This document shows positions 56,384-62,972 of a DNA stretch of 64,000 nt, one piece after another (position 1 is the first letter of the stretch; every line of letters starts with the position of its first letter). The notes beneath the pieces were generated by a model. That model did not search any database. It saw only the letters and a program-made list of their open reading frames with translations, and had not been told where the DNA came from. Where the stretch lies: contig NZ_CP023860.1 of assembly GCF_003326015.1 (NCBI RefSeq), positions 682,001-746,000 on the forward strand, read 5' to 3'. A program made the position numbers and the translations under genes. This DNA comes from Candidatus Thioglobus sp. NP1 (GTDB taxonomy: Bacteria; Pseudomonadota; Gammaproteobacteria; PS1; Pseudothioglobaceae).

Positions 56384-57388
56384 ATGAATATTAAATTTAT
56401 CACTAAGGTATTTGGTGCAACTGCTACTGCATTTTTATTAATGTTTAGTACTGCCTCAAATGCTGCATGTGGAAAAATAACTATTGCTGACATGAACTGG
56501 GCATCAGCTTCTTTGATGGCTAATGTTGACAAGGCTATGCTGGAAGCAATGGGCTGTGAAATTGAGCTAGTTGCTGGTTCTACTATGCCTACATTTACTT
56601 CAATGAATGAAACTGGTTCACCAGACGTTGCTCCAGAAATTTGGGCTAATGCAATGGCTGATCTAGTTGATAGTGCTGTTGGTGCGGGTCGTTTACACAT
56701 TGGTAATATAGCTCCAATGTCAGGTCTTGGTGAAGGCTGGTGGGTTTTACCTGCTACACTTGATGCACATCCTGAGTTAACTTCAGCTGAAGCAATTCTT
56801 GCACGTCCTGACTTATTCCCTGACAAGGAAGATCCTTCAATGGGTGCTTTCCATGGTTGTCCTGCTGGTTGGGGTTGCCAATTATCAAACCAAGCTCTTT
56901 ATGACGCGTTTGATATGGAAGCAAAAGGTTGGAAGTTAATCGATCCTGGTTCAGCTGCTGGACTTGATGGTTCAATTGCAAAAGCTTCAGAGAGTGGTGA
57001 TAACTGGTTCGGTTATTACTGGAATCCAACTTCGTTAGTTGGTAAATATGACATGCAGGCTATCGATATGGGCTCTTATGCTGGTGACGATAACTGGGTA
57101 GGTTGTGTTGCTGTCGCTAGTACTGGTTGTGAGGCTTCATCTTGGATTAATTCTCGAGTGAATACACTACTAAGTGACAACATGTACTACAACGGTCCAA
57201 GTGATGCGATGAAGTATTTTGAAGCTCGTACATGGCCTGGTTCTGTAATGAATCAAATGCTAGTATGGATGGAAGATACTGGAGGAACAGGAGCTGACGC
57301 TTCTGTTGAATTCTTATCATCTCATGGAGACGTATGGAAAGCTTGGGTCAGTGCAGATGTTGCTGCCTCAGTAGAAGCTTCTCTATAA
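56384..57388 (+). CDS. proX: Glycine betaine/proline-type ABC importer substrate-binding protein
   Basis: Periplasmic binding protein of the OpuAC family, 334 residues. The signal peptide (about 1-27, ending TASNAA) precedes a mature domain starting CGKITIADMNWASASLM. It carries several Trp/Tyr residues fitting an aromatic cage (WWVLPATL, NWFGYYWNPTSLV). Cys pairs in FHGCPAGWGC and VGCVAVASTGC suggest disulfides. Ligand glycine betaine, proline betaine or choline is inferred from family and neighbours. AGGAG sets the start. Codon use is more C-ending than that of proW, as in highly expressed binding proteins. Confidence 0.92.
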   Translation: MNIKFITKVFGATATAFLLMFSTASNAACGKITIADMNWASASLMANVDKAMLEAMGCEIELVAGSTMPTFTSMNETGSPDVAPEIWANAMADLVDSAVGAGRLHIGNIAPMSGLGEGWWVLPATLDAHPELTSAEAILARPDLFPDKEDPSMGAFHGCPAGWGCQLSNQALYDAFDMEAKGWKLIDPGSAAGLDGSIAKASESGDNWFGYYWNPTSLVGKYDMQAIDMGSYAGDDNWVGCVAVASTGCEASSWINSRVNTLLSDNMYYNGPSDAMKYFEARTWPGSVMNQMLVWMEDTGGTGADASVEFLSSHGDVWKAWVSADVAASVEASL

Positions 57389-57431: not shown

Positions 57432-57444
57432 TAGGTAAATACTA

Positions 57445-57480
57445 ATTGCCCGTAGATTTTATGATTACGGGCAATTTTTA
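57445..57480 (+). terminator. Intercistronic stem-loop 2, terminator-like
   Basis: Perfect 10-bp stem ATTGCCCGTA/TACGGGCAAT (57445-57454 and 57466-57475) with an 11-base loop, followed by TTTTA. A long loop and a short T-run suggest a partial (leaky) terminator between proX and proW. Confidence 0.7.
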
Positions 57481-57511
57481 TGATTAAGGACTAAATATCA
57501 GTCTTTAATCA
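57481..57511 (+). other. Intercistronic stem-loop 3, proX-proW
   Basis: 12-base arms (57481-57492 and 57500-57511) pair throughout with one G-U, around a 7-base loop. It follows stem-loop 2 directly, so three stem-loops stand in tandem in 113 bases. Confidence 0.7.
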
Positions 57512-57590
57512 TAAAAATTATTTATTTTGGATAAGTCATTTTTAATTTAAGTTTAAATTGAATTGCAATTTGAAGAAAAAAAATGTTTAA

Positions 57591-57623
57591 ATTAAAAGAG
57601 TTTAAAAGAGTTTAAAGGAGTTT
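57591..57623 (+). repeat. 10-bp tandem repeat carrying the proW ribosome-binding site
   Basis: Unit TTTAAAAGAG occurs three times (first copy ATTAAAAGAG, third copy TTTAAAGGAG). The third carries AAGGAG, 6 bases before the proW ATG; the first two carry the near-Shine-Dalgarno AAAGAG. A 10-codon frame (ATG 57583 to TAA 57613) overlaps the repeat. Confidence 0.8.
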
Positions 57624-57626
57624 AGT

Positions 57627-59795
57627 ATGTCGGCAGTTAGGCCAATCCCTCAACAGTCAATAATAGAGTGTATTCCGCCAGCATCTGAAATTGCAGATCT
57701 AAGAATACTTGGGAAAGATTTAAACTTTATCCAAGCGATGACAAAAAGAGCTGATGACTTAACAGCTCAAGCTCTAAATGCTACAGAGTATTCTCAGTTG
57801 GTTCAAATAACGGATAGTTTTGTAAAGCTTACTGATCGGGCAGAAGCCAAAACGAAAACGTTAAAAGAATTAGCAAACGACTCTAATCGATTAACCGAAG
57901 TTAACAATTCTGCAGAACTTCTCGAAAAGGTTCAGTTATTAGCTCAAGCCCTAGAGAGTAAGACTCAAGAGCTTTCTGGTCTCTATAGTTCAAACGAAAA
58001 CTCATTATTAGAAAACTATGGTAGCACTATTAATGAGCTAATAAATAAGGTTGACTCTATAACTACCCCTAATGAGGTTATTTCTTTATTTGCTGAAACA
58101 GAAACTTTATTTAAAGCTATTAGTGAAAATGCGCGATATATAAATAATAATCCAAAGGCACAAGAGTTGCTTGCTAAGGTTGAAGAGCTTTCAAGTATAT
58201 ATTCAGATAAAGCAGAGCAATATACTGATTCCTTTATGAGTGAAATGGGTTCTCAAATTGCATTACTAAATCAAAAAATTACAGGTCTTAAAGGAAATAT
58301 TGATTTCCTTAGTTCAAATTCTTCAATCCAAACTCACTTAGATCAATTGTCACAAATTCGTGAGCAAGTGAATGCCTCATCCTCAATATATAAGAATTAC
58401 CCTGGTGTTCGAGATATGATTTATAACTTAGATACGCTAAGTATCTCTACCCATGCAAAAGTTAAGGATATGGCAGAGAGTAATGAAATAGTTTCAGATT
58501 TAATGCCTTATATAAATGATTCAGAGGCTCTTTCCAGAGCTGTCAAAGAAGCTGCTATTAGAACCGATGTCTCGACTGTTGAGAATGTCCTAATGCCATT
58601 AGTAAATAAAGCAAATGAGTTAAGTGCGAAAGTAAACGAGTTAGCTGGCCTCTATGAAGCGGGTAATTATGGTGATATTAAAGTAAGAGCAGTGGCTAGT
58701 TTTGATAAAACTGTGGAAAGACTGGATAGGCAGTATATCTCTATACGATCAACTGATCCAGAGGCTTTGGCTGCAAATATAAGTGGTTATGCTAACGATG
58801 TTGGATTAAGTATTAACGCAATTCGCCCAGTCAACCCTGAGTCGCAAATTCAATACTTTAGTAGCATGGCTTCTCGAGTTGGAGATTCAATAACGACTTC
58901 AGACTTTAGTATATTTGTAAACAATGTAATATCAATACCTGGGGATGTAATGATGAGTTCTCGTAACTGTGTTGATGCTGCTTTCAAAGACTTTACAAGA
59001 GAGTTTGGGAGTAATATTGAGGCTTTCTTTGATCCGTTAATGTTTTTTTTAGTTTGGCTCGAAAGGCTATTATTATCAACACCATGGCCGATTTTTTTAG
59101 GGGTAGCAGGAATTTTAGCCTGGTTAGGCTCTAGAAGTATTAAGGTCTCAATTTCAGTTATGTTTGCATTCTTTGCAATTGGATTTTTAGATATGTGGGA
59201 CCCTATGATCTCAACTGTAACAATGATTTCAGCTGCAACACTTCTATGTTTGACATTAGGAATGCCTCTTGGTGTATGGATGTCAAAGTCCGAAAGAGCA
59301 CAATCAATAATAACTCCTGTACTGGATATTATGCAAACAATCCCTCCATTTGTATATCTTATTCCTGTTGTTATGATGCTAGGTATTGGTAAGGTTCCTG
59401 GATTAATTGCAGTTTGTATCTATGCTATGCCACCTATTGTGAGGTTAACAAATTTAGGCATACGTTTAGTTGATAAAGAAGCGATGGAAGCAGCAGATGC
59501 ATTTGGAGCAACATATAGGCAAAGATTGTTTATGGTGCAAATACCTTTGGCTCTTCCAAATATTTTTGCTGGGATAAACCAGACTATTATGATGGCTCTA
59601 GCGATGGTTGTTATTGCCTCAATGATTGGAGTTGCAGGACTTGGACTACCAGTACTCCAGGCTGTTCAAAATCAATATTTATCAATGGGTACTCTAAATG
59701 GGCTTGCAATTGTTGCCCTGGCAGTTATTTTTGATAGAGTTTCTCAAGCATTTGGTACTAGGATTCAAAAACACCGTTCTGGAGATGTCCTATGA
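57627..59795 (+). CDS. proW: Glycine betaine/proline-type ABC permease with 465-residue N-terminal extension
   Basis: 722 residues, about twice the family length (E. coli ProW 354). Residues about 466-722 are a normal ProW permease: first helices at 473-520, then PLGVWMSKSERAQSI, DIMQTIPPFVYLIPVVMMLGIGKVPG, the EAA loop EAADAFGATYRQRLFMVQIPLALPNI and NQTIMMALAMVVIASMIGVAGLG. Residues 1-465 have no signal peptide or membrane helix and look mostly helical/coiled coil. They contain four degenerate repeats ending in an [LI]-Y pair (119-120, 191-192, 254-255, 342-343). One frame without a stop, so it is a fusion or extension and not an error in two genes. It overlaps proV by 4 bp. Confidence 0.9.
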   Translation: MSAVRPIPQQSIIECIPPASEIADLRILGKDLNFIQAMTKRADDLTAQALNATEYSQLVQITDSFVKLTDRAEAKTKTLKELANDSNRLTEVNNSAELLEKVQLLAQALESKTQELSGLYSSNENSLLENYGSTINELINKVDSITTPNEVISLFAETETLFKAISENARYINNNPKAQELLAKVEELSSIYSDKAEQYTDSFMSEMGSQIALLNQKITGLKGNIDFLSSNSSIQTHLDQLSQIREQVNASSSIYKNYPGVRDMIYNLDTLSISTHAKVKDMAESNEIVSDLMPYINDSEALSRAVKEAAIRTDVSTVENVLMPLVNKANELSAKVNELAGLYEAGNYGDIKVRAVASFDKTVERLDRQYISIRSTDPEALAANISGYANDVGLSINAIRPVNPESQIQYFSSMASRVGDSITTSDFSIFVNNVISIPGDVMMSSRNCVDAAFKDFTREFGSNIEAFFDPLMFFLVWLERLLLSTPWPIFLGVAGILAWLGSRSIKVSISVMFAFFAIGFLDMWDPMISTVTMISAATLLCLTLGMPLGVWMSKSERAQSIITPVLDIMQTIPPFVYLIPVVMMLGIGKVPGLIAVCIYAMPPIVRLTNLGIRLVDKEAMEAADAFGATYRQRLFMVQIPLALPNIFAGINQTIMMALAMVVIASMIGVAGLGLPVLQAVQNQYLSMGTLNGLAIVALAVIFDRVSQAFGTRIQKHRSGDVL

Positions 59796-60826
59796 CGCAG
59801 GATATAAAAATAAAAATTTCAAATCTGACAAAGATTTTTGGACCTAAGGCAGAGTCTGTTTTAAAACATGTCGATAACGGGATGGGGAAAGATGATCTCC
59901 TTAAGGAGCATCAGCATGTTCTTGGACTAAGTAATATTAACCTTGACCTGGCAAACAAGAATATTGAAGTAATTATGGGTCTTTCAGGCTCTGGAAAATC
60001 GACTCTTATTCGTCATATCAACCGACTTATTGAACCTACCGCTGGCTCTATCATGATTGGTGGTGAGGATGTGATTCAAATGCCTATGGAGCAACTTCGT
60101 AAGTTTAGGCAGCAAAAAACAGCGATGGTTTTTCAAAGCTTTGCATTGTTACCTCATAAAACAATTTTGGATAATGTTTGCCTGGGTGTTCACTTACAGG
60201 GTGTGAAAGGTGATGATGCCATTACTAGAGCAAAAAAATGGATTGATCGAGTAGGCTTAACAGGTTATGAAGATCGCTACCCATCTCAACTATCAGGTGG
60301 AATGCAACAACGTGTTGGTTTGGCTAGAGCTCTTACTTGTGATACCGAAATATTAATGATGGATGAGGCCTTTAGTGCCCTTGATCCTTTAATTCGAAGT
60401 GACATGCAAGACTTACTCCTAGAACTGCAACAAGAGCTTCACAAGACAATTGTTTTTATTACTCATGACCTTGACGAGGCTCTTAAAATTGGTGATCGCA
60501 TCGCCATTTTAAATGGTGGAGAGTTGGTCCAACATGGTACAAGTCAGGAAATTTTAATGACACCTGCAGACGATTATGTAAGAGACTTTGTTAAAAAAGT
60601 AAATCGCTCGCATGTGCTTCAAACTAAATCTGTTATGACAGATCAAAAGCCATCAAAGGGCTCTAAATCAATTGCAGTTAGTGATATGGATTCAATCGAT
60701 TCTGCTTTGTGTGAGATGCTTCGTGAAAATGCTGACTGTTGCATTATTCAAGATTCAAGTGGTTCAGATGTTGGTTATTTAAATAAGAAGGATATTGCTG
60801 AGGTTGTTAAACCCTTAGAGGTATAA
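59792..60826 (+). CDS. proV: Glycine betaine/proline-type ABC ATPase
   Basis: ATPase of the importer, 344 residues. The N-terminal helix region with KIFGPKAESVLKHVDNGMGKDDLLKEH is typical of ProV. Walker A is GLSGSGKST (63-71), Q-loop FQSFALLPHKT, signature LSGGMQQRVGLARA, Walker B ILMMDEAFSALD, switch THDLDEAL. After residue 280 only one CBS-like stretch remains (SIAVSDMDSIDSALCEML ... VGYLNKKDIAEVV), against two CBS domains in E. coli ProV (400 residues). The start overlaps proW (ATGA). It converges with prfC, 5 bp apart. Confidence 0.95.
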   Translation: MTQDIKIKISNLTKIFGPKAESVLKHVDNGMGKDDLLKEHQHVLGLSNINLDLANKNIEVIMGLSGSGKSTLIRHINRLIEPTAGSIMIGGEDVIQMPMEQLRKFRQQKTAMVFQSFALLPHKTILDNVCLGVHLQGVKGDDAITRAKKWIDRVGLTGYEDRYPSQLSGGMQQRVGLARALTCDTEILMMDEAFSALDPLIRSDMQDLLLELQQELHKTIVFITHDLDEALKIGDRIAILNGGELVQHGTSQEILMTPADDYVRDFVKKVNRSHVLQTKSVMTDQKPSKGSKSIAVSDMDSIDSALCEMLRENADCCIIQDSSGSDVGYLNKKDIAEVVKPLEV

Positions 60827-62405: not shown

Positions 62406-62972
62406 TTAAGTCTTAGGAAGGGTGACGCCAGTTTGACCCTGGTATTTTCCATCTCTATCTTTATAAGACGTCTCACATACTTCGTCTGATTCAAAAAAAA
62501 GCATCTGAGCAACACCTTCATTGGCATATATTTTTGCTGGTAACGGTGTGGTGTTAGAAAATTCAAGGGTCACATGTCCTTCCCATTCAGGCTCAAGTGG
62601 AGTGACATTAACAATAATCCCACATCTTGCATAAGTTGATTTTCCTAAGCAAATAACAAGAGTCGAACGAGGAATTTTAAAGTATTCAATTGTGCTTGCT
62701 AGGGCAAAAGAATTAGGAGGAATAATGCATTCATTGGAATTGACCTCAACAAAGCTTTGCTCATCAAAATTTTTAGGATCAACAATATTATGATTAATGT
62801 TTGTAAATATTTTAAATTCTGTCGAACAGCGAACATCATAGCCATAGCTTGATGTTCCATAAGAGATAATTTTTTGATCATTTACCTTGCGGAGTTGATA
62901 GGGTTCAAATGGAGAAATCATGCCTTCTTCTAGAGACATTTTTCTTATCCAATTATCAGACTTTATACTCAT
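62406..62972 (-). CDS. dcd: dCTP deaminase
   Basis: Dcd deaminates dCTP to dUTP on the way to dTTP. The 188 residues show [103 protein letters not shown], covering the active site Ser/Arg/Glu region. It lies between mraY (33 bp upstream on this strand) and prfC (5 bp downstream). Confidence 0.97.

Follow-up and report, generated by a model that had tools for sequence, protein, structure and literature searches.

A permease of the ProW family that carries several hundred additional residues at its N-terminus raises the question of what these residues are, on which side of the membrane they lie and what they might do for the importer. Such a permease is encoded in the window, the 64,000-nucleotide stretch of Candidatus Thioglobus DNA that we analyzed here, which belongs to a genome of 1.69 Mb in one contig. 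We found that the extension is a real, conserved and lineage-specific variant of a known importer, and we argue that it is probably exposed to the periplasm.

The extended permease gene and its operon

The gene and its neighbors comprise the following elements:

56384..57388, forward strand: proX/dmpX-like substrate-binding protein of 334 aa with an N-terminal signal sequence (PF04069 OpuAC, 1.4e-39, 136.7 bits)
57444..57519, forward strand: hairpins between proX and proW, a possible attenuator or terminator (sequence, terminator-like scan)
57614..57629, forward strand: start of the extended permease gene, ATG with its ribosome-binding site AAAGGAG (sequence)
57627..59795, forward strand: extended ProW/DmpW permease of 722 aa (one open reading frame including the stop)
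59792..60826, forward strand: proV/dmpV ATPase of 344 aa (TIGR01186, 343.6 bits, cut-off 326.6)

As the initial annotation had stated, permease and extension share one frame, an intact ORF of 722 aa (57627-59795). The AAAGGAG sequence (57614-57620) is located 6 bases ahead of the ATG, and the open frame counts 729 codons, with an upstream stop seven codons before the start. A signal peptide overlooked upstream of the ATG was therefore ruled out, as only 7 open codons are available. Within the extension there is no signal peptide or membrane helix either, which had also been claimed: hydropathy reaches a maximum of 1.04 for 19-residue windows before residue ∼440, without any TM-like window, and the first transmembrane helix spans residues 481-500.

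An OpuAC-type binding protein upstream and a ProV-type ATPase downstream define a proXWV operon. PF00528 (BPD_transp_1) matches the permease at residues 545-713 only, with 87.7 bits against a cut-off of 26.4, and together with the operon partners this identifies it as a ProW/DmpW-type ABC permease of the betaine family. The model of the E. coli ProW equivalog, NF008196, matches residues 467-712 (E 1.6e-72) with 244.3 bits, below its cut-off of 439, and the choline permease model TIGR03416 (ChoW) gives 248 bits, below 363. Judged by these models the protein is a member of the E. coli ProW family, not the E. coli equivalog. Both the permease and the ATPase belong, by NCBIfam, to the proline/betaine/choline group; among the models seen, TIGR01186 alone scores above its cut-off.

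The binding protein gives a more specific indication of the substrate. Its nearest solved structure is 7yle (E 2.4e-51), the numbering of which fits all eight residues of the DMSP pocket named for RnDmpX. These are W35, T64, W84, E113, W152, A153, Y200 and W202 according to PMC10030565, which also reports DmpX in Candidatus Thioglobus. Seven of the eight are identical in the window ProX and Ala153 is replaced by Gly, so that, going by sequence, DMSP or a betaine is the likely substrate. Between proX and proW two overlapping hairpins are found, the first (AATTGCCCGTA...TACGGGCAATTTTT, 57444-57479) with a GCCCGTA stem and a T-run, the second (57473-57519) with an AT-rich stem of 20 bp. They could lower the expression of proWV relative to proX.

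Further downstream, the interval between prfC and mraY holds a dcd-like (dCTP deaminase) gene in the window (62406-62972) and in one other genome, G007. In genomes G048, G030 and G028 the same slot is taken by a dCMP-deaminase-like gene, apparently a non-orthologous replacement of one pathway step. Both genes were named by their sequence, and the loci compared with the window were L107:10814-11260, L100:2441-2902 and L101:1499-1957.

Extent, distribution and selection

The permease chain itself can be divided as follows:

57627..58910, forward strand: lineage-specific N-terminal domain, residues 1-428, with no signal peptide, TM helix or known family
57627..57731, forward strand: conserved N-terminal segment, residues 1-35, RPIPxxxIxECxPxAxEIxxLR, holding the invariant Cys15 at 57669-57671 (alignment)
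57681..58895, forward strand: predicted all-helical array, residues 19-423 (AlphaFold2 models)
57918..58160, forward strand: residues 98-178, copy A of the internal repeat (hhalign probability 97 when compared with copy B)
58167..58409, forward strand: internal repeat copy B, residues 181-261 (hhalign against copy A)
58911..59066, forward strand: residues 429-480, the usual N-tail of ProW with the interfacial helix, homologous to short ProW starts
59067..59792, forward strand: transmembrane permease domain with EAA loop, residues 481-722 (PF00528; OpuA match)

Short relatives, found in this family as well as in other orders and with frames of ∼298-322 aa, align to the window permease from residue ∼429; L063, for example, aligns with 'FFDKFPSMSRDELLDFKKNVDSGFSEFTGEYGEAIEAFFDPLL' to 'FVNNVISIPGDVMMSSRNCVDAAFKDFTREFGSNIEAFFDPLM' of the window. 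The gain is therefore a block of ∼428 residues exactly in front of a complete permease. A long addition had been recognized before, but its length had been given as 465 residues, and residues 429-466 turn out to be the ordinary N-tail of ProW. The earlier estimate that the protein is about twice the family length was if anything too low: nearly all intact extended permeases have 704-737 aa, while 36 related permeases outside the family (two sampled classes, E <= 1e-65) have open frames of 289-358 aa, so that the protein is more than twice as long as its family.

Of the 83 genomes of the family, 24 carry the extension, two of them one-contig genomes, and it is always fused to the permease in one frame. 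The extended frame is confined to two genera of the family: 22 of 29 genomes in the genus of the window, where the misses are mostly incomplete genomes, and 2 of 2 in one other. Members are 33-91% identical in the extension. Their permease parts form one clade (support 98/100), and extended members of both genera mostly share the locus gyrA-proXWV-prfC; in a further genus of the family the short form occupies a different locus. One member (G028) is split across two contigs at the permease, and in the draft genome of a close relative the permease is frameshifted near the C-terminus (L002, G023:C3:60592-61360), by sequencing error or recent decay. Two other kinds of unusual ProW-like frames occur in many members of the genus: a second, distant permease of 501 aa with its own N-terminal extension of ∼200 residues containing hydrophobic helices (L098:1329-2831 in G018), and a frame of ∼809 aa with two tandem ProW-like permease domains (G000:C1:922504-924156).

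Residues 1-428 gave no meaningful Pfam, NCBIfam or PDB sequence match, and the extension is not a domain already described for ordinary ProW proteins. Neither the 369 genomes sampled from the class nor phages and plasmids contained a homologue, and 398 sampled genomes of the phylum gave no credible one; as these are samples, rare relatives may occur elsewhere. The phylum matches at E 0.004-0.08 were rejected as flagellin, histidine kinase, other unrelated helical proteins or the ordinary ProW N-tail alone. A scan of 385 genomes of the class of G566 also yielded none, a result that says little as it was run without a positive control. Apolipoprotein, KIF21A and similar weak matches in a scan of 16 members, mostly of single members, look like effects of composition or coiled coil and were set aside.

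Across residues 36-428 omega (NG86) is ∼0.08-0.3 in most pairs and 0.45 in one pair, and for residues 2-35 and 429-466 it is usually below the value for 36-428. Since omega is well under 1, the extension is translated and under purifying selection. Its best-conserved parts are its two ends, with a mean identity of 0.61 for residues 1-35 (from 7 divergent rows) and 0.65 for residues 426-448; the middle evolves faster (0.36-0.56).

Predicted fold and internal repeats

The extension had been described as helical, and AlphaFold2 (residues 1-466, 16-sequence alignment) indeed predicts helices throughout residues 19-423, with a mean pLDDT of 82.5, a pTM of 0.65 and 281 residues above 90. The pLDDT is mostly ∼90 over residues 19-423 and low at the cysteine-bearing ends, 1-27 and 425-447. 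Helices are predicted at 19-51, 55-81, 95-115/117-143, 148-172, 177-223, 231-255 and 261-295, followed by 299-312, 316-325, 329-346, 353-372, 378-398 and 404-423. This list can be read as some five bundles of three helices each (19-115, 117-∼200, ∼200-280, ∼280-346 and 353-423), in which helices 95-143, 177-223 and 261-295 would pass from one bundle to the next in a spectrin-like manner.

Residues 98-178 and 181-261 are an ungapped duplication (hhalign probability 97, score 57); the reversed control scored 20 at probability 10, and the best of 20 shuffles 16.5. Other pairings were weak, and a scheme of five equal 83-residue repeats was set aside as the profile is convincing for one pair only. 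The earlier proposal of a built-up repeat domain thus stands in so far as repeats exist, but not in the scheme described, which defined the repeats by terminal [LI]-Y pairs. There are five such pairs in the extension (119, 191, 254, 265, 342) against ∼2.6 expected by composition. As pairs they are not conserved, and they do not fall into register with the 83-residue duplication. At positions 120, 192 and 343 all 21 members have Y or F as the aromatic residue, and 19 of the 21 do so at 255.

Among structural matches, the three-repeat spectrin chains 3edv, 1u4q and 5j1i covered three bundles with Z ∼10, a score to be read with care as Z below ∼13 is common for helical models and other helical arrays score like spectrin chains. 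The best Foldseek matches were designed helical repeats and bundles with query-normalised TM-scores below 0.2, which gives no fold assignment, and among the matches listed for 16 members there was no spectrin Pfam match. The predicted helices of the extension follow a long-short-long pattern and continue into the next bundle, as in spectrin repeats. However, its period is ∼83 residues instead of ∼106, identity is 6-11% and the global rmsd ∼20 Å or more. We therefore call the predicted arrangement spectrin-like and do not claim kinship or membership.

Two invariant cysteines

In 21 of 21 aligned extensions, that is ∼9,800 residues with identities down to 33%, there are exactly two cysteines, C15 and C448, and no other. 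Cys448 (58968-58970) is absent from short relatives. The cytoplasmic neighbor proteins GyrA, ProV and PrfC contain several lineage-specific cysteines, and the exported ProX has six invariant ones and none that are lineage-specific. The genome of the window encodes DsbA (CPHC motif) and DsbB. A disulfide between C15 and C448 therefore seems likely; it would tie the free N-terminal end to the stretch that immediately precedes the permease, and hence would place the extension in the periplasm. Alternatively, the bond might possibly form between the subunits of the ProW dimer. In a straight rod of five bundles C15 and C448 would be far apart, so that closure requires a curved or folded-back array.

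Side of the membrane and possible role

The EAA loop (residues ∼618-645) is located between TM5 and TM6. As this loop is cytoplasmic, counting back from TM5 to TM1 yields a permease with its N-terminus outside. The positively charged stretches GSRSIK, SKSER and the C-terminal RIQKHR fall on the cytoplasmic side, and residues 439-711 align to residues 7-278 of the OpuA chain (7ahc/7ahd/7ahh) with Z 11.4-11.5. From the EAA loop, the charge placement, the OpuA match and the two invariant cysteines, the extension is probably periplasmic, and a tail of ∼466 residues should then be translocated although it has no signal peptide.

We propose that a betaine/DMSP type I ABC permease gained an all-alpha domain of ∼428 residues in the genus of the window and one sister genus lineage. 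The permease would have retained the N-out topology of ProW and OpuA, the extension being delivered to the periplasm by N-tail translocation. There some five three-helix bundles would make up a curved or folded-back array, the Cys15 end of which would be disulfide-tied to the membrane-proximal Cys448 segment beside the permease mouth, a position suggested by domain boundary and topology. With two copies per transporter, the domains would lie on either side of the periplasmic mouth of the ProW dimer, most likely as a scaffold by which ProX is held or oriented, or as a spacer of the transporter in the periplasm. To this explanation as a whole, a periplasmic disulfide-closed helical domain on the permease of a ProXWV/DmpXWV importer acting as ProX scaffold or spacer, we assign a probability of about one half. 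The same applies to its shorter form, in which a folded disulfide-closed tail of ∼430 residues, exported without a signal peptide, is a lineage-specific periplasmic importer scaffold in marine bacteria. The scaffold role for ProX is a guess from location and helical-array form and the weakest step of the proposal. The ProX proteins of extended and short systems look alike, which lends no direct support to docking of ProX, and a spacing or anchoring role seems about as likely.

In a stricter version of the latter, the extension might be a periplasmic spacer or anchor rod that touches peptidoglycan, the outer membrane or a porin and channels ProX and substrate to the transporter without docking ProX. 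Repeat-type bundles with long linking helices and a fast-evolving middle between conserved ends would suit such a rod. However, we found no peptidoglycan-binding motif or known domain, and the cysteine of the conserved free end seems to have its partner next to the membrane, which is more in keeping with a loop than with a free rod. We consider this version rather unlikely.

It is likewise unlikely, in our view, that the extension stays in the cytoplasm as an intracellular regulator or adaptor, either because the part ahead of TM1 is not translocated or because the helix 466-484 adds a crossing that restores the topology. The tail lacks a signal peptide and contains 42 Lys and Arg (9%, net charge -22), a share between exported ProX (4.5%) and cytoplasmic ProV (11.6%) that we counted against export, since N-tail translocation should be impeded by positive charges. 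Moreover, many cytoplasmic proteins have acidic helical domains, and the predicted helix 469-484 is fairly hydrophobic. However, the core permease topology with the EAA loop inside gives an external N-terminus, and the helix before TM1 is kept in short ProW proteins and matches OpuA. The presence of exactly two cysteines, both invariant and unaccompanied by sporadic ones, is unlike the pattern in cytoplasmic neighbors. That two genes were joined by sequencing or assembly error, which the initial annotation had named as a possible objection, or that a decayed extension is not translated as a fusion, is hardly conceivable: beyond the unusual fusion and the fast-evolving middle nothing speaks for it, and the identical fused ORF layout in 24 genomes, with conserved start and ribosome-binding site, no stops and low omega, rules out an assembly or frameshift artefact for the window permease.

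Comparison with known importers and implications

The permease family and an N-tail ahead of TM1 are shared with E. coli ProW (ProVWX/ProU). The tail of E. coli ProW, 100 residues ahead of TM1, was reportedly found by Whitley in 1994 to be periplasmic and exported independently of Sec. It has ∼100 residues, whereas the tail of the window permease has ∼466; about 428 of these are predicted to fold into a domain that has an invariant cysteine at each end. We know of no bacterial N-tail longer than this extension. With DmpXWV, the DMSP importer of Roseobacter and SAR11, the likeness lies in the ProX pocket, apart from the Gly in place of Ala153; a long N-terminal domain of DmpW is not mentioned in the passages of PMC10030565 that we consulted. 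OpuA of Lactococcus lactis aligns in its TMD and membrane-proximal N-tail. The substrate-binding domain of OpuABC is part of the permease chain and lies outside (PMC11065425). The window permease differs in that its N-terminal helical domain has no binding-protein fold and ProX is separate.

The extension represents, in marine bacteria that probably take up DMSP or glycine betaine, an elaboration of a compact ABC importer other than the fusion of a binding protein. If it is periplasmic, it would be an extreme natural test of N-tail translocation, with ∼460 residues and 42 positive charges moved without a signal peptide. As such it would bear on how Sec and YidC move long tails, a question for which earlier work used much shorter ones. 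Its topology as well as its fold can be tested directly by way of the two invariant cysteines.
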